A DNA stretch of 27,409 nucleotides from a virus, in IMG/VR virus record IMGVR_UViG_3300035232_001497, positions 1-27,409 of that record, one strand, 5' to 3'. The number at the start of each line of letters is the position of its first letter. Positions within the stretch are counted from its first letter, which is position 1. This document shows positions 1 to 9,094 of this stretch, in pieces. The notes under the pieces are model-generated. The model saw nothing but the letters and a program-made list of their open reading frames with translations, was not told the origin of the DNA and did not search any database. The position numbers and the translations under genes were made by a program.

Positions 1-954
1 ATTTTCCACTTATAAAGAATTCCCCATCAAGGTATAAACCACTCCCACCAGTAATGTAAACACCGCTTTGGAAAGCTAGAGAAAGGCTTTCATCTGGACC
101 CTCGAACAGTGCAGGGTCTCTACCATCCGTAAGAACCATTGCGCCAGACTCACCAACTATGGAGTCTAGAGATTCGATTTCGTCTGCGAAAATCCTACCT
201 TCTACATGCAAGTCTGCGCCACCAGTAATGTAAACCCCACTCTGGAAAGCTAAAGAAAGGCTTTCGTCTGGGCCTTGAAATAATCCAGTAGGTCTTCCAT
301 CGGTTATAATTAACCCTGTTTCAGAAACGATTCCTTTTACGCCAGTTATTTCGTAAAAGTTTAAGTCTTCGGTGGAAGCATCGGAGTTTGTGGGAAAATA
401 GGATTCTACGGATTTTCCACTTATAAAGAATTCCCCATCAAGGTATAAACCACTCCCACCAGTAATGTAAACACCGCTTTGGAAAGCTAGAGAAAGGCTT
501 TCATCTGGACCCTCGAACAGTGCAGGGTCTCTACCATCTGTAAGAACCATTGCGCCAGACTCACCAACTATGGAATCTAGAGATTCGATTTCGTCTGCGA
601 AAATCCTACCTTCTACATGCAAGTCTGCGCCACCAGTAATGTAAACCCCACTTTGGAAAGCTAAAGAAAGGCTTTCATCTGGACCCTCGAACAGCGCAGG
701 GTCTCTACCGTCTGTAAGAACCATTGCGCCAGACTCACCAACTATCGAGTCTAAAGCCTCGATTTCGTCTACGAAAATCTTGCCCTCTACATGTAAGTCT
801 GCGCCACCAGTAATGTAAACCCCACTCTGGAAAGCTAAAGAAAGGCTTTCGTCTGGGCCCTGAAATAATCCAGTAGGTCTTCCATCGGTTATAATTAACC
901 CTGTTTCAGAAACGATTCCTTTTACGCCAGTTATTTCGTAAAAGTTTAAGTCTT
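1..954 (-). repeat. Nested 411-bp / 174-bp coding repeats in the fibre gene
   Basis: The sequence at 1 recurs almost unchanged at 412, a period of 411 bp (137 codons). Inside each copy is a smaller unit that can be anchored on ACCAGTAATGTAAAC, found at 47, 221, 458, 632 and 806. Successive anchors are 174 bp (58 codons) apart, except 221 to 458, which spans a 237-bp linker-containing unit. The left copy has one 174-bp step before the linker type and the right copy has two, so unit number varies within one gene. Bases 221-369 and 806-954 match closely. Each unit encodes GPDESLSLAFQSGVYITGG with variable flanks. Confidence 0.93.
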
Positions 955-2182
955 GAACTCCTACATGCTCATCGATGTATTCAGTCCAAGGTATTCCACT
1001 AACGAATAAGTCACCAATAAAATCTTTCTTGCCTGTGATTAATTGATTTCCAGTGGTATAAACACCGCTTACTACTCTTAAAGCCTCTCCCGAAAGATTA
1101 CCTGTGATGGGCTCAAGAAACTTCTTGCCTCCCAGTATGGTTTGCTCACCAGTGAGGTAAACTCCATCTTGTACATACCTTGCGGTTCCCGAAAGATTAC
1201 CCGTGATGGGCTCAAGAAACTTCTTGCCTCCCAGTATGGTTTGCTCACCAGTGAGGTAAACTCCATCTTGTACATACCTTGCGGTTCCCGAAAGATTACC
1301 TGTGATGGGTTCAAGAAACTTCTTGCCTCCCAGTATGGTTTGCTCACCAGTGAGGTAAACTCCATCTTGTACATACCTTGCGGTTCCCGAAAGATTACCA
1401 CTGACATTTCCTGAAATAAAAGAGTCAAAAGATTTTATTCCGCTTATATACTGATCGCCAGTAATATAAACTGCATAATCTCTAACATTGCCAATGGCAT
1501 CTTCTATATGTCTTGCTATAGGAGATCCGCTCAGATAAATATCATCACGAAAGTCTTTTATTCCGCTAATTCCAAAATTTAAACCAGTTTGATTACCCGT
1601 TACATAAACGCCGTCCTGCACATATCTTGCTGTGCCAGAAAGGTTTCCACTAACATTCGCTTTTACGAAATTTTGAAAGGTTTTAATTCCGTCAATTAAC
1701 TGGTCTCCAGTTACATAGACTCCATCTTGTACATATCTAGCTGTACCAGACAAATTTCCGCTGACATTCGCTTTTACAAAATCATCAAAGGTTTTTACTC
1801 CATATATACTTTGATCACCTGTTGTATATACTCCGTCTACTACATATCTTGCTGTCCCCGAAAGGTTTCCGCTAACATTTCCTTCGATGAATTCTTCAAA
1901 AGTTTTTATTCCTCCAATAGCCTGATCCCCAGTAGTATAAACACCATCTTGTACGTACCTAGCTATACCCGAAAGATTCCCACTTACATTTCCAACAATA
2001 AAAGATGTAAAGGTCTTTATTCCGTTTATCGTTTGATCACCAGTAACATAAACTACATCGCCAAATAGAGTCGAAAAATCTACTTTGTAATTATTAAAAT
2101 CTTCTCTAGCTATTAAAAAGTAATCAGTACCTTTAAGGTAAGGAACACTATCTAAGTCCGAAATTTTTCTATCTACAGCCAT
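1..2182 (-). CDS. Repetitive phage tail fibre protein, C-terminus beyond the left edge
   Basis: An open frame starts at the ATG complementary to 2182-2180 and stays open for at least 727 codons to the window edge, so the C-terminus is missing. The N-terminal 50 or so residues are unique (starts MAVDRKISDLDSVPYLKGTD). They are followed by tandem units built on the pattern TGDQ-x-I-x-G-x-KTF, then GNVSGNLSGTARYVQDGVY. These resemble the short beta-rich repeats of phage tail fibres. Later come three near-identical 33-residue units (GEQTILGGKKFLEPIT core), then 58- and 79-residue units ending LSLAFQSGVYITGG. All repeat periods are multiples of three, so the frame survives. No Shine-Dalgarno sequence is evident; GTGTAAGATAATATA precedes the ATG. 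The stop of the upstream gene lies 20 bp away. The likely role is a trimeric distal fibre or adhesin; host binding is inferred, not shown. Confidence 0.8.
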   Translation of the reverse strand, partial: MAVDRKISDLDSVPYLKGTDYFLIAREDFNNYKVDFSTLFGDVVYVTGDQTINGIKTFTSFIVGNVSGNLSGIARYVQDGVYTTGDQAIGGIKTFEEFIEGNVSGNLSGTARYVVDGVYTTGDQSIYGVKTFDDFVKANVSGNLSGTARYVQDGVYVTGDQLIDGIKTFQNFVKANVSGNLSGTARYVQDGVYVTGNQTGLNFGISGIKDFRDDIYLSGSPIARHIEDAIGNVRDYAVYITGDQYISGIKSFDSFISGNVSGNLSGTARYVQDGVYLTGEQTILGGKKFLEPITGNLSGTARYVQDGVYLTGEQTILGGKKFLEPITGNLSGTARYVQDGVYLTGEQTILGGKKFLEPITGNLSGEALRVVSGVYTTGNQLITGKKDFIGDLFVSGIPWTEYIDEHVGVQDLNFYEITGVKGIVSETGLIITDGRPTGLFQGPDESLSLAFQSGVYITGGADLHVEGKIFVDEIEALDSIVGESGAMVLTDGRDPALFEGPDESLSLAFQSGVYITGGADLHVEGRIFADEIESLDSIVGESGAMVLTDGRDPALFEGPDESLSLAFQSGVYITGGSGLYLDGEFFISGKSVESYFPTNSDASTEDLNFYEITGVKGIVSETGLIITDGRPTGLFQGPDESLSLAFQSGVYITGGADLHVEGRIFADEIESLDSIVGESGAMVLTDGRDPALFEGPDESLSLAFQSGVYITGGSGLYLDGEFFISGK
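1088..1384 (-). repeat. Three tandem 99-bp near-identical units in the fibre gene
   Basis: The unit beginning TCCCGAAAGATTACC (plus-strand reading) occurs at 1088, 1187 and 1286, exactly 99 bp apart, and its first bases recur at 1385. The three copies differ at only a couple of third-position bases, such as GGGCTC versus GGGTTC. On the coding strand each encodes 33 residues: GNLSGTARYVQDGVYLTGEQ followed by TILGGKKFLEPIT. The near-identity suggests recent expansion or ongoing homogenisation. Confidence 0.95.
1385..2050 (-). repeat. Diverged 111-bp tandem units in the fibre gene
   Basis: At least four 37-codon units can be aligned at 111-bp spacing, with equivalent points near 1643, 1754, 1865 and 1976. 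Each encodes a TGDQ-I-G-KTF strand followed by GNVSGNLSGTARYVQDGVY. One interrupted unit (about 1470-1640) carries DIYLSGSPIARHIED-type sequence instead. They differ from the 99-bp units mainly by four extra residues (GNVS) and by much greater divergence between copies. Confidence 0.85.
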
Positions 2183-3457: not shown

Positions 3458-5278
3458 ATGGGTAAAGTGTCAAATGTCAAAATAGGCGGTGGGTCGCTAA
3501 AAGTAGGCCACAGTATTCTGGCTAATCAATTAAAGAAATGGCACGGAACAGGAACTGCTGTAACATACACTGATCTTATAGACAGACCTGATTATTACAT
3601 AAGGGAAGTTTCTGAGCATTTTGGAATACCTTATAATAAAAACACAATCAAGAAAGAGGATTATTGGGATATTAAAGACCCCAAAGTCATTAAAAACCCA
3701 AATGAAGGCACTCCAGAAAGAATTTTTGTGGACAGACTTCCTAGATATCCAAAATTTGAGGTTAATTTTGATTCCACATATCAAAAACAATTTTTAGATG
3801 CTAGTTATAAACTATCATTCAACCACCCACAAGAAGGGTTGAAGAACTCTAGATCATTGAAATATTATTTTACATGCGAAGAATTGCAAACCGCAATAAA
3901 TGAAGATTTAATATCTGGGTATTCTGGATATAGCGTATCTAATGCTGGTGATATAGAACATGGTAGTTTCGGCCCTTATATGCTTCAATCTAATTGGACT
4001 GGAATAAATAGTAACCCAATTTATGTAAGCGAAAATACCAGTAAAGAGTTAATAAGCGGTGTTATTGATGGTTACGGCGGAGGGGTAAACTCTCACAGTC
4101 ATTATACTTTAAATTTTCTTAAAACTGGATCTGGAGATTACACTCACACATATTCTGGTTACAATTTTGAACCAGGTGTAGAAATAAGAGTAGAGACAGT
4201 TTTTCAAAATTATGATATTAGTGCAGGGTGTTATGCTATAGATTCTTCTTCGATGATTCCTACTAATATGGGGATTAGTGGGGTAGATTCGGAAGAATCC
4301 ACATTTTATAATGTAGCTACGACTACTGATAGTGCAGGCATGCTTACTAGGCCAGCTCATTCAAGAATTATTCAATGGACTACGGGTTTAAGTTTTGTTT
4401 TTAGTGATCATGTTGACCCTAATGATTCAGATAAAAAACTTTATATAACTGGAGCGATACCAAAACCTCACGGACAAGTTATCTTTCGATCAAATCAAAC
4501 TCCATGGAATCAATACAACCTTAATCTAGAAGTTGATGGAGACGGGGCAAATGGTTACACTGAAAACAATTATTGGTACTTAGGAGCTCCAGATGGTTAT
4601 TTAGGCCATAGGCATTTTCATTATACAGGAATAAAGATCACAAATTCAAACAAAATAAAAGGATTTAGAATATCTAACCAAAATAGCCCAACAGTAAATG
4701 ACTCTTTGTCGAAAATCGTCATAACCGATTGCCCTAACTTTGAACATTTTAGAGCTCATCAGATGGAATTAAAAGCTGTTTCTCATGTTGATCTATCAGG
4801 GTGCTCTTTATTAACACAGAACGATTTACATTCAGCTCATCCTCCAGAGTTTTACAGCAGCACGGGAGTTTTTCCGCACAATGTATTTAGGACCGTTCCA
4901 GATTACTTAAGAAGCCCTTACTATAATGGAATTGATGTTGACGAACCTCATGACCAGGCAGTCCCGCCTGGAGCAGACCCATCTCCAATCAACTCTTTCC
5001 GATTGAGACATGTAAATGTTGCAGGTAATAGCCTTAATCAAACTGGAGTTTACTTCTGGATAAGAGCTGCTCAAATATCTTTTCTTAAAAGTGGGTACTT
5101 AAATATTTCTAATCAAGACCCAAGGGTTGGTCCTGAATCCCCAGTTTTCGATGGTTTGAGAGCTAATGCATACAACGGACTATTCCCTGACATTAATAAC
5201 CAATGCATTAGCGGTCTTGAGGCATTAAAACGGAATGAATGGACTGTTATTCATGACGGCTCTTTCGATAGACTATAA
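3458..5278 (+). CDS. Unrecognised 606-residue protein with leucine-rich-like C-terminus
   Basis: This is the first gene of a two-gene cassette on the plus strand, opposite to all its neighbours. It starts at ATG 3458 without a Shine-Dalgarno sequence, preceded by TATAATAAGTT. The N-terminal 400 residues are rich in Asn, Ser, Tyr and Gly, with no motif I recognise and no signal peptide or membrane segment. Residues about 402-452 and 514-554 look like irregular leucine-rich repeats (KIVITDCPNFEHF, VSHVDLSGCSLL, RHVNVAGNSLN, YLNISNQ). The end (GLEALKRNEWTVIHDG) resembles capping sequences of such repeats. Leucine-rich repeats usually mediate protein binding, so an adhesin or virion appendage is plausible. 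The position among tail genes supports this, but the function is inferred. Confidence 0.6.
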   Translation: MGKVSNVKIGGGSLKVGHSILANQLKKWHGTGTAVTYTDLIDRPDYYIREVSEHFGIPYNKNTIKKEDYWDIKDPKVIKNPNEGTPERIFVDRLPRYPKFEVNFDSTYQKQFLDASYKLSFNHPQEGLKNSRSLKYYFTCEELQTAINEDLISGYSGYSVSNAGDIEHGSFGPYMLQSNWTGINSNPIYVSENTSKELISGVIDGYGGGVNSHSHYTLNFLKTGSGDYTHTYSGYNFEPGVEIRVETVFQNYDISAGCYAIDSSSMIPTNMGISGVDSEESTFYNVATTTDSAGMLTRPAHSRIIQWTTGLSFVFSDHVDPNDSDKKLYITGAIPKPHGQVIFRSNQTPWNQYNLNLEVDGDGANGYTENNYWYLGAPDGYLGHRHFHYTGIKITNSNKIKGFRISNQNSPTVNDSLSKIVITDCPNFEHFRAHQMELKAVSHVDLSGCSLLTQNDLHSAHPPEFYSSTGVFPHNVFRTVPDYLRSPYYNGIDVDEPHDQAVPPGADPSPINSFRLRHVNVAGNSLNQTGVYFWIRAAQISFLKSGYLNISNQDPRVGPESPVFDGLRANAYNGLFPDINNQCISGLEALKRNEWTVIHDGSFDRL

Positions 5279-5280
5279 AA

Positions 5281-5287
5281 AAAAGGA
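5281..5287 (+). promoter_or_regulatory. Shine-Dalgarno site of the 373-residue gene
   Basis: AAAAGGA lies 5 nt before the ATG at 5293 and directly follows the upstream stop codon. It fixes the start of the second cassette gene. It also shows that this phage uses canonical ribosome-binding sites at some genes, unlike the first gene of the same cassette. Confidence 0.8.
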
Positions 5288-5292
5288 TTAAT

Positions 5293-6414
5293 ATGTTTTA
5301 TGCGACAATAGATAGCTCTTTATATAAAACCTGCAAAGATAAAGATGGAGAAAGTGAAAATAAAGTAATAATAACTCCTACTCTAAATATGGCTCAAGGT
5401 GATGCGTCTAGAGCGTCTGACGGGACTTTATTAAACATTGATACTTATTATTGGGAAGTTTTAAAAGTGAATAGTAATTATAAAAATGCTATCAACAAGC
5501 AAACTTTTGCTACAGTAAATGCTTTAACATCAATTAATCAAAAATTTGTAGCTTATGAAGTTTCAAATATTCAAGACGGAGAGGTTGTCTATATTCAAAT
5601 AGCATGTTCCATAAAGGATTCTGCAAATCCTTCATACCTTATTGATTTAGACTACGAGTACGGAAGTAAAGTCATATCAAACCAAACAGTTTACAGAGGT
5701 GACCCAGTAAATACTGCGTTTAGAATATTTACAACCAAAAACGGTAAGATTGAACAAGAGAACATATACGACAATGCTATAGAAAGAACTATTAAGATCG
5801 CAAATAAAGCTGATAGAGCTTTTTTCTCTTCGATAGAAAATACGACAAACGGATCAAAAGAAAACATATCAGAATTTTTAACGAGATGGGAAAGTAAAAA
5901 TTCTATTGGCAATGAAACGTATACAACCCAAAATACCTCCATTGGGTCGGGAGGTTATGGTTTAAAAACCAGGGGTAGTGTAACTTTTGCAAAAGATGAA
6001 AAAGTGCTTTATGCACATGGTAGATCTTTAGATCTTGATTCAATAGAAAGTTTGCTTTATCAAAACCCTAAAAATTCAATCCCTGAGGGGACCCCAGAAG
6101 AAGCAGATAGAGGAATTTATTTACAAGCAATGCATAACAGAAGAAGCCAGGACTCTGGATACAACTCTTTTTTAATGCCCATGTTCAACCCAGGATTTAC
6201 CTCAAAAGGAATTCAGCCAAGGTTCTACTTCCCCGAAAGGAGCAGTCACCCCGCAGGAAATAACAATCCTAATCAGAAATGTGGTACTGCATATGCGGAT
6301 GTTACATGGACGCCTCCATCTTATCCTGTATGCCCTAGCAATAAACCAGTTTGTGCTGGTCACAAACAAATTACAGTCCCGTTTTGCGTTGATCTTCCTT
6401 GCCAGAATTGTTAG
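5293..6414 (+). CDS. Unrecognised 373-residue protein with cysteine-rich C-terminal tail
   Basis: This is the second gene of the plus-strand cassette, 14 bp after the first and with a strong Shine-Dalgarno sequence, so the two are probably co-transcribed. No known family is recognised. Residues 1-320 are mixed alpha/beta in character, without signal peptide or membrane segment. The last 44 residues hold six cysteines (330, 347, 354, 365, 370, 373), one histidine and several prolines, and the final residue is Cys. Spacings include C-x6-C, C-x4-C and C-x2-C. Such a tail could bind a metal or form disulphides; neither can be decided here. The gene converges on the 891-residue gene with only 4 bp between stop codons. 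Confidence 0.6.
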   Translation: MFYATIDSSLYKTCKDKDGESENKVIITPTLNMAQGDASRASDGTLLNIDTYYWEVLKVNSNYKNAINKQTFATVNALTSINQKFVAYEVSNIQDGEVVYIQIACSIKDSANPSYLIDLDYEYGSKVISNQTVYRGDPVNTAFRIFTTKNGKIEQENIYDNAIERTIKIANKADRAFFSSIENTTNGSKENISEFLTRWESKNSIGNETYTTQNTSIGSGGYGLKTRGSVTFAKDEKVLYAHGRSLDLDSIESLLYQNPKNSIPEGTPEEADRGIYLQAMHNRRSQDSGYNSFLMPMFNPGFTSKGIQPRFYFPERSSHPAGNNNPNQKCGTAYADVTWTPPSYPVCPSNKPVCAGHKQITVPFCVDLPCQNC

Positions 6415-6427
6415 CAAATTATTTTGC
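6414..6427. other. Small inverted repeat at convergent gene ends
   Basis: GCAAA (6414-6418) and TTTGC (6423-6427) form a perfect 5-bp stem with a 4-nt loop. It spans the stop codons of the two convergent genes. Only short T runs flank it, so a bidirectional terminator is possible but weakly supported. Confidence 0.25.
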
Positions 6428-9094
6428 AACTATAAATAGTTGATAATTATCTATAGGTTTTGTTCCTTGACCATCACCTAAAAACGGGCCCTCTTCTTGA
6501 AGGTTGCCCAAATCATCCTCAAGCTCCCTGCTAAATGCATTAGATGCTTGTTGTAGAGATACTTCTATATCAGTTCCAGTTGACAATATAGCATCACTAT
6601 CATATATTGTAAATGTATGGAAAGGCCATCTTCTACTTTGTTTTCCAGCTAAATAACCGTTCCAACCAAGCATATCAGTTTCAAAACCATATTGAGCTAG
6701 AGTCCATGGATGCAATAAAGTTTTTTCGCATTTATGTTTAATTTCTTTCGCCCATTGATTTCCATTATTTGTGACATTGTTGGTATATCCTGCGCCGCAC
6801 ATGCTTAATAATAAACATACATCAAAACCTTGTAGACTTGAACCAAAACGAGAGCTCATTTGATAAAATGCCCTTATTGATGGGTCTACCTTTATCGCGC
6901 AGCCTGAAAAAAAACATTTATCAAGTTGTTCAGCTTTGCTAACTTTAGACCCATATGCTTCCTCAAACTCTTTTGCCCAGCTCGCCCAAGTAGTTGTAAA
7001 AGTTCCGTTGTTTAAATATTTGCCATTTAATGATGCTATATTATTTTTATAGGAAGGCCACAAAGAACCAGTTGCTTCATCTAAACCACCATGATGAAAT
7101 TCTTTAATATTAAAAGTAAGGTCATCATCTTGAAGATCTGTATCACCAAATATTGATACATATATTTCTGATGTTTTTAAATTACTATATCCACTTCCTT
7201 TATATTCTGCAGTTGAGTCTGTGGTATCATTTGTATGTTCTTGTTCCCAATACTTTACCCAATTACATTTACTCCAACTTACATTTGTTGTGGCAGAATT
7301 TACCTTAGAAGAAATATGCATAAAATGCCCAGTATTGGAATGCCAATATATATGTGTCCAGTAAGCTAAACATGAAAAATCGTTTTTAATATGAAGAGCT
7401 TCTGATAATTCATTAGACCAATAAGGATGTCTTATTGGTACTTTTTGCTTACCACCGCCAGTTCCTTCTTGATTACTATTCATTACTGTATGAAAAGTAC
7501 TTCCGCTCCCAGTGTTAACTGTTGGAGTGTTTCTGATTAAATCACTTACTACTGAGGAAGGCGGATTAAAATTTACTCTTATTTTATCGCATACTGTGGT
7601 ATCATAAGTATCTCCATCAAAATTTGTTAATTTATAATTTCCCCATGTATAATCTGAATTAGTTGAGCCTCTGGGAATTAATAATGTAAATGCCGAATTA
7701 ATTTTTGCTGAACCTAAATTACTAGACAATGTGATTTTATTTCCGCCTGCGGCAACAGATGATATTGCATATTCAGTAGCATCTCCTGCAAATTTTATTT
7801 TAAAATCCTTTGATATATACCTTTCAATTATAGTTGTTTTATTACTGTATAAGTTTGAAAAAGTTATTGTTTTATTACCTGCTCCACTGCTGGTTGCTTT
7901 TATGGCGGTTCCTCTATCTGTATATATATTAGAGCTTGACATTTCTGCATACTGTCCTTTTATGTCGTTTTGAGCAGAGAGTACTGTTCCTCCAGCTTTA
8001 ATTGTTATATTTTTTAAATATACTGATCCAGTATGAGTTTCCAGTCTTGTATTATAATCATTATGAATAACAGCATCCTGAACTGAAATTTCATCGTCCC
8101 AATCGTATCCATTTTCTTCTTCTAAAAAAGGGTTATTAGATCTGCTTGGACAACACGGATAAACTTCTTCACCGTTTAATTTTCCTAGCCAACTTGGCTT
8201 TGTAGTGAGAACCATTCTATCTACACCTTTTGCAGATGTTGTTCTTGGTATTTTTGATCTAAATAATTTTTTTAAATCAGCAACACTTGATAAAGAATTA
8301 GCAACGCTTTCTCTATTGTATGTGAGAGGATACTTCACCGAACCTCCACCACTGACACTAGTTCCATCGATAGCATTAGCTATCCAACTCATTGGAGCGG
8401 CTCCATTTGGATGATTTGCATCCCATGAATCTATAAATTGATTATGACCTCTAGTACTACCAATATGTATTAATCTAACGCCAAGATTATTTCCCCCAGC
8501 CCCACATTCATTATAATAAAACCTTCTTCTTTTTAATATTAATCTGTATCCTTTATAGCTCTTAGTGGTTGTTAGTTTTAACGGATTATCTTTATGTATT
8601 CCAACAAAAGGATGTGATATATTATTAGATAATGCTGAATTTGAAAGGTGATGACAGCTCTCTCTATTTTGCGCTTGAAATAAATCATCTGTACTGGTAG
8701 AATGTTCAGTTGTTCCACTTTTATCTCTTTTACTGGAGTATACTGATGCGATGTCATCCACTGTCATCTTAGAAACCTTAGTTCCGTAAGTACTTACCCC
8801 AGGCCACCCATAAACCATTGGGGAATTAAAAGTTGTCCAATACTCTACACTTATTCCGTTTTCCTTGCTAGCAATATCAAAAAAATTAAACGGATGTCTA
8901 TCGTCTCTAATTAATAGTTGAAAAAAATCTTGAATATATTTTCTCCTTTTCCCAGCAAAAGAAAAACCTGAATGGCTATCTTCGGTTGCAGTTTCTCCAT
9001 ATCTTACATCATGAGCATTCGAAAATTCAGTAAAACCGCTAGCGGCAAAAGAAGAGCCTCCGTAGCTGTTCCAATATATTTGATCGTATGGCAT
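6419..9094 (-). CDS. Unrecognised 891-residue phage structural protein
   Basis: It starts at ATG 9094, with AAAGG at 9108-9104 nine nt upstream and the stop of the 61-residue gene 2 bp before it. I recognise no family over the full length. The protein is unusually rich in Trp, His, Asn, Ser and Cys (more than ten cysteines, including YPCCPSRS and KCFFSGC) and has no signal peptide. Residues about 355-475 form a beta-rich section (SVYLKNITIKAGGTVL, TEYAISSVAAGGNKITLSS), the style of small beta domains in phage tail and decoration proteins. The N-terminal 50 residues include a basic patch (AGKRRKYIQDFFQLLIRDD). Its place after the J-like gene and before the fibre region suggests a virion component such as a tip accessory or receptor-binding protein. 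An enzymatic role cannot be excluded. Confidence 0.6.
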   Translation of the reverse strand: MPYDQIYWNSYGGSSFAASGFTEFSNAHDVRYGETATEDSHSGFSFAGKRRKYIQDFFQLLIRDDRHPFNFFDIASKENGISVEYWTTFNSPMVYGWPGVSTYGTKVSKMTVDDIASVYSSKRDKSGTTEHSTSTDDLFQAQNRESCHHLSNSALSNNISHPFVGIHKDNPLKLTTTKSYKGYRLILKRRRFYYNECGAGGNNLGVRLIHIGSTRGHNQFIDSWDANHPNGAAPMSWIANAIDGTSVSGGGSVKYPLTYNRESVANSLSSVADLKKLFRSKIPRTTSAKGVDRMVLTTKPSWLGKLNGEEVYPCCPSRSNNPFLEEENGYDWDDEISVQDAVIHNDYNTRLETHTGSVYLKNITIKAGGTVLSAQNDIKGQYAEMSSSNIYTDRGTAIKATSSGAGNKTITFSNLYSNKTTIIERYISKDFKIKFAGDATEYAISSVAAGGNKITLSSNLGSAKINSAFTLLIPRGSTNSDYTWGNYKLTNFDGDTYDTTVCDKIRVNFNPPSSVVSDLIRNTPTVNTGSGSTFHTVMNSNQEGTGGGKQKVPIRHPYWSNELSEALHIKNDFSCLAYWTHIYWHSNTGHFMHISSKVNSATTNVSWSKCNWVKYWEQEHTNDTTDSTAEYKGSGYSNLKTSEIYVSIFGDTDLQDDDLTFNIKEFHHGGLDEATGSLWPSYKNNIASLNGKYLNNGTFTTTWASWAKEFEEAYGSKVSKAEQLDKCFFSGCAIKVDPSIRAFYQMSSRFGSSLQGFDVCLLLSMCGAGYTNNVTNNGNQWAKEIKHKCEKTLLHPWTLAQYGFETDMLGWNGYLAGKQSRRWPFHTFTIYDSDAILSTGTDIEVSLQQASNAFSRELEDDLGNLQEEGPFLGDGQGTKPIDNYQLFIVAK

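Follow-up and report, generated by a model that had tools for sequence, protein, structure and literature searches.

Tandem modules in the tail-fibre gene of an uncultured lambda-tailed phage: probable gain and loss by recombination between units, and contig ends within the gene

Here, we describe an incomplete tail-fibre gene at the left end of a linear virus fragment of 27,409 bases (the window, which is the entire record) from an uncultured lambda-tailed phage. With a probability of roughly 0.77, the gene encodes a shaft of tandem modules, recombination between units adds or removes whole modules, and in the window the duplication of a three-unit block was followed by the loss of one unit from the copy. 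Near-identical units, a mosaic hybrid unit, units homogenised by lineage, and differing arrays in the assemblies of near-identical viruses all point this way at the level of sequence. The gene was compared with 13 further contigs carrying it, taken from IMG/VR and one genome collection; most of these are cut within the fibre gene, and their unit counts are minima. The source phage is probably large, since an intact relative sits on a 163-kb record.

Positions 1-954 hold what is present of the 3' part of a single ORF, which runs on the minus strand from 2182 to 2 and is identified as a tail-fibre gene because of its profile matches and its position. The ORF matches Pfam BppL_N at 91.6 bits in 8 stretches (cut-off 25.8), and PHROG 7911 (tail protein, E = 1.2e-10) and 16641 (tail fiber, E = 3e-6). 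Its neighbours, namely a 2821-aa J-like tip protein, a tail assembly protein (PHROG 32) and a minor tail protein (PHROG 18), are a setting of lambda-type tail genes, so that the fibre gene lies within the tail module. As to a possible trimeric, beta-rich fold, the Gp34_trimer profile scores 24.8 in the window, below its cut-off of 27, and 27.9, just above it, in the related contig L035. A DNA search of an annotated phage collection for the closest relatives gave no match, and a protein search returned Streptomyces phages only (27-31% identity); the hypothetical protein of gene 33 in Streptomyces phage Dryad shows 27% identity across 50% of the protein. A sequence search of solved structures found none with the window fibre and one match, at chance level, with the L018 stretch. 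AlphaFold models reached a mean pLDDT of 40 for the C-terminal domain of the family and 30 for the B array, too low for use, and were discarded; a fold search with the low-confidence C-terminal model (pLDDT 40) gave nothing below E 0.001. The gene was also considered as the target of a diversity-generating retroelement and this was rejected, with reverse transcriptase (PF00078) found in 0 of 10 records, most of them fragments, in a search in which the controls gave their signals.

Beside the fibre gene, two plus-strand genes (3458-6414; 606 and 373 aa) lie within the minus-strand tail operon, and the same opposed pair adjoins the fibre gene in contigs L002, L003, L004 and L070. The 606-aa gene has no Pfam or PHROG match and the 373-aa gene has a weak tail-fibre match (E = 0.009). 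The tail module also holds an 891-aa minus-strand ORF (6419-9094) without a PHROG match.

From the N terminus, the module order read from the sequence appears to be an anchor, A units of 33/37 aa, B units of 57/58 aa and a C-terminal head domain, which is seen in relatives and missing from the window. The features of the gene are as follows.

2..2182, minus strand: tail-fibre ORF; 727 codons present, 3' end missing where it runs off the contig (Pfam and PHROG matches).
2057..2182, minus strand: N-terminal segment (MAVDRKISDLD...DYFLIAREDFNNYKV), conserved in the window and three relatives.
1590..1990, minus strand: array A1, 111-bp (37-aa) units, about 3.6 copies, 72% alike (repeat search; A-motif spacings of 37 aa).
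1088..1399, minus strand: array A2, 99-bp (33-aa) units, 3.2 copies, 98% alike (repeat search).
755..928, minus strand: B unit 1, block 1, preceded by DLNFYEITG to about 954 (unit anchors).
581..754, minus strand: B unit 2, block 1, the extra 58-codon unit (unit anchors).
407..580, minus strand: B unit 3, block 1, with a linker to about 370 that then leads directly into block 2 (unit anchors).
170..343, minus strand: B unit 4, first of block 2, a hybrid with a unit-1 head and a unit-2 tail (unit anchors, mosaic test).
2..169, minus strand: B unit 5, a copy of unit 3 cut by the contig end (unit anchors).

The N-terminal segment is probably the virion-anchoring end. Ten A motifs lie 33-46 aa apart, the last in three near-identical 99-bp copies, and array A2 contains an exact 98-bp repeat (1104-1201 and 1203-1300). 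Judged by these identities, array A1 would be old and array A2 recent, and the contrast between the A2 units and the neighbouring 111-bp A units indicates a second, separate recent expansion in the fibre gene. This second array (111-bp and 99-bp units, 1088-1990) was absent from the earlier note, which had been made from the letters of the window. The B units are ordered as a first unit, middle unit(s) and a last unit. Units 1-3 make up block 1 (370-954, 585 bp) and units 4-5 block 2 (1-369); the blocks are set apart by the linker, and both begin with the DLNFYEITG sequence. Unit 5 is 99% identical to unit 3, with 2 synonymous codon changes and 0 nonsynonymous.

The earlier note had described nested in-frame repeats of 411 and 174 bp at 1-954. 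Direct repeats at both offsets are present there, together with a further offset of 585, and all are in frame within the minus-strand ORF 2182-2. The 58-codon unit (LDSIVGESG-type) does occur twice in the right region and once in the left, as the note had counted, and unit anchors place three units on the right and two on the left. Exact matches join 1-127 with 412-538 (127 bases), 276-369 with 861-954 (94 bases), and 165-241 with 576-652 (77 bases). No 24-mer is repeated in the window outside 1-2200, so the repeats at 1-954 go far beyond chance.

Block 2 reads as a mosaic of block 1. Positions 210-369 equal unit 1 at +585 with one mismatch, positions 1-241 equal units 2-3 at +411 with two mismatches, and these three differences from the mosaic parents in 369 bp are all synonymous by codon check. 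A one-breakpoint mosaic leaves 3 mismatches, against 16 or 68 under single-parent models; in the mosaic test, 1 of the 80 informative sites was a misfit and 10,000 permutations never fell below 8 (P = 1e-4). The breakpoint falls in one shared tract.

210..241, minus strand: inferred crossover tract of 32 bases, identical in the hybrid, unit 1 (795-826) and unit 2 (621-652).

Block 2 has the form expected if recombination between units had removed one 174-bp unit in frame. L018, an independent contig, has the same succession, with counterparts of units 1 and 2 (96-97% identical) and then a last-type unit; given this three-unit order, the three-unit block is probably ancestral and block 2 lost one unit. 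In the window, the tail of unit 1 carries about 5 substitutions of its own, where unit 1 of L018 has the unit-2 state. The crossover tract may therefore exceed 32 bp, and some of the mosaic signal could reflect changes that unit 1 underwent later, instead of exchange.

Across the family, DNA identity between middle B units is 95-97% within a gene and 67-79% (mean 73%) between genes, a range that leaves out the close pair of the window and L018. As identity within a gene far exceeds that between genes, the arrays have been remade or homogenised in each lineage. The earlier note had proposed recombination or slippage as the origin of the repeats. Unequal or intragenic recombination is supported, by the one-breakpoint mosaic and by units that are more alike within a gene than between genes, while replication slippage alone is possible but fits the 174-bp unit less well. 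In the comparison with related phage genomes that the note had suggested, middle-unit numbers differ among relatives, as do the versions of the units, and two near-identical viruses differ in their arrays, in agreement with its expectation that unit number varies between relatives. Variation of unit number within a population is likely.

Those two viruses are L034 and L035, each from a metagenome of its own. Over 11,373 bases, a stretch that takes in the first 1.37 kb of the fibre gene, they do not differ at all; beyond it they diverge. L034 runs on through more B units to its contig end, and L035 jumps from GPDESL to IMGDSG (at about 11,434 of L035) and then enters the sequence that opens contig L069. 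That contig shares its metagenome with L034, and past the jump it matches L035 without a difference for 2,632 bases. L035 is without at least 31 aa, plus further unit sequence, that are present in L034 and its apparent partner contig L069, a difference that compares assemblies and not reads. The jump is in frame, shares 2 bp at the junction and splits a unit; the junction would be either a real (possibly illegitimate) deletion or an assembly error. The start of the 163-kb relative, searched for in the L069 and L034 contigs, gave no match.

The fibre gene is complete in L035 (809 aa) and L070 (1095 aa), in both of which the conserved N terminus, the repeats and a distinct C-terminal head are found together, with the array followed by the C-terminal domain. 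This domain also closes L018 and L019, and is 42% identical between L018 and L035. In the fibre gene of L070 (L070:4987-8274), a large segment is inserted in the C-terminal domain and has a weak sialidase N-terminal (lectin-like) match below the cut-off; the L070 contig was binned as Candidatus Neomarinimicrobiota, a weak clue to the host. Contig L020 (3300031851_000186) matches the right part of the window at 100% identity. L019 (3300031851_000004), a 99-kb contig from the same metagenome as L020, begins in the same kind of array; the two may be parts of one genome, but a search for a shared end found none. L019 was also tried as the missing 3' end of the window's gene; its first 127 bases are absent from the window, so a link is not supported. 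Downstream of the fibre gene in L019 (2184-3269 and 5761-10062), a run of ORFs resembles glycosyltransferases, as seen from translations only.

The left end of the window is a repeat boundary at which the gene is cut, a point absent from the earlier note.

1..127, no strand assigned: 127-bp perfect repeat at the contig end, a probable break in a de Bruijn graph with k=127 (exact match to 412-538).
412..538, no strand assigned: internal copy of the 127-bp contig-end repeat (exact match).

The match between these copies stops at base 128, and the gene continues past the contig end, so the window shows a minimum of unit number only. In documented JGI metaSPAdes runs the k list is 33,55,77,99,127, with 127 as the largest k (PMC11584781, PMC7171226), and the 127-bp match suggests that the assembly of the window used k up to 127; with a 127-bp repeat in a k=127 graph, a contig must end at such a place. 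Exact repeats within 128-2182 reach 98 bp at most, and the internal unit order should accordingly be sound. Contig ends fall inside the fibre gene in 12 of the 14 contigs, against about 2 expected from their lengths (P ~1e-9, assuming independent ends and a 3.3-kb gene), and in 9 of 10 when near-identical contigs are collapsed (P ~1e-7). For some of these ends the visible part of the gene shows no exact repeat, which implies a contribution from repeats out of sight or from length polymorphism in the population. Short-read assembly is known to fail at repeat-bearing or variable fibre-type places (PMC6487183), and here the repeats prevent standard short-read sequencing from covering the whole fibre gene. 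The earlier note had warned that assembly could have collapsed or duplicated units. This concern is borne out at the contig end, which breaks at exactly 127 bp, and by the many contigs that break in the gene; within 128-954, where exact repeats do not exceed 94 bp, collapse or duplication is unlikely.

In the mechanism that we propose, recombination between identical tracts of tens of bases in adjacent units, during phage replication, would lead to gain or loss of whole 99-, 174- or 585-bp modules. Each unit is a whole number of codons and equivalent in structure to the others, which would keep the protein in frame and let it change mainly in length. The 585-bp three-unit block would have been duplicated first, and the downstream copy would then have lost a unit by exchange between unit 1 and unit 2. 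Fibre reach, and possibly receptor access, would then vary within the population.

The same product would result from a gain, if a two-unit block had been duplicated and its upstream copy had acquired a 174-bp unit by unequal crossover between the unit 3 and unit 4 types, and unit 2 can be described as a unit-3 head with the hybrid tail; but the sister array of L018 already has three units, including close counterparts of units 1 and 2, and the tail of unit 1 alone would have to diverge after the event, which makes a gain unlikely. It is distinctly improbable that the nested pattern is mainly an artefact, with short reads of co-existing strains misjoined or units collapsed or duplicated. An artefact would agree with a contig that ends exactly with a perfect repeat as long as the top k of documented JGI metaSPAdes runs, and with the excess of contigs ending in the gene, yet the k=127 path is unambiguous through 128-2182 for want of any longer exact repeat, the linker that joins the blocks (344-411) is unique sequence, and the independent contig L018 has the same unit order.

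The repeats could instead be fixed, with fibre architecture setting the unit number, no functional variation of the array, and within-gene similarity arising from gene conversion without change of length. Repetitive shafts are normal in phage fibres (a T7-type example is given in PMC3909814) and total counts are not readable for most relatives, but the hybrid unit and a block one unit shorter are changes of length, and L034 and L035, whose genomes are otherwise near-identical, are of unequal length; we regard fixed repeats as quite unlikely. A stronger form of the recombination reading, in which the array is a length-switching locus, frequent recombination keeps many fibre lengths in each population, and this polymorphism, beyond the exact repeats, breaks nearly every assembly, is put forward tentatively, as possible but somewhat doubtful.

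Module copying and deletion by recombination is an already known route of phage evolution. The closest precedents that have been tested are in phages EfV12-phi1 and T4. In the Enterococcus phage EfV12-phi1, in-frame tail-fibre tandem duplications of varying number occurred in all four coevolved populations and in none of the controls (PMC6365445). As in the window, these lie inside a tail-fibre gene, there upstream of a predicted carbohydrate-binding end; however, the EfV12-phi1 unit is 1.8 kb, whereas the window's modules are 99-585 bp, and EfV12-phi1 is a cultured myovirus in which the link to infectivity was followed, whereas the window's phage is uncultured and is likened to it by description. 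Duplication of a small domain of the T4 gp37 adhesin was linked to expanded host range (Tetart et al. 1996, as cited in PMC6365445 and PMC9603124), a likeness in the duplication of a small fibre-adhesin domain, though, going by those citations, in another protein and another domain. Tail fibres of marine phages in metaviromic islands, which under-recruit in metaviromes, are alike in having an N terminus that is conserved, a stretch of repeats particular to the protein and a C-terminal end that varies (PMC3909814); those are T7-type pelagiphage fibres, whereas the window's family keeps a C-terminal domain that is recognisable between L018 and L035. The A units match BppL_N (Pfam PF18338) well above the cut-off, but in Pfam this is the N-terminal domain of a baseplate protein, whereas the window repeats it along the shaft, with the B units outside it.

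The array is presumably the shaft and the missing C-terminal domain the head, with unit number setting the reach of the fibre, and by analogy unit number may tune host or receptor range. The window would be a natural, uncultured counterpart of the fibre duplication seen in a coevolution experiment, in which the footprint of recombination can be read and units are homogenised by lineage. Short-read contigs of this phage group end in the host-recognition gene, a bias by which the probable receptor-binding head is often parted from the remaining genome in public collections of viruses.
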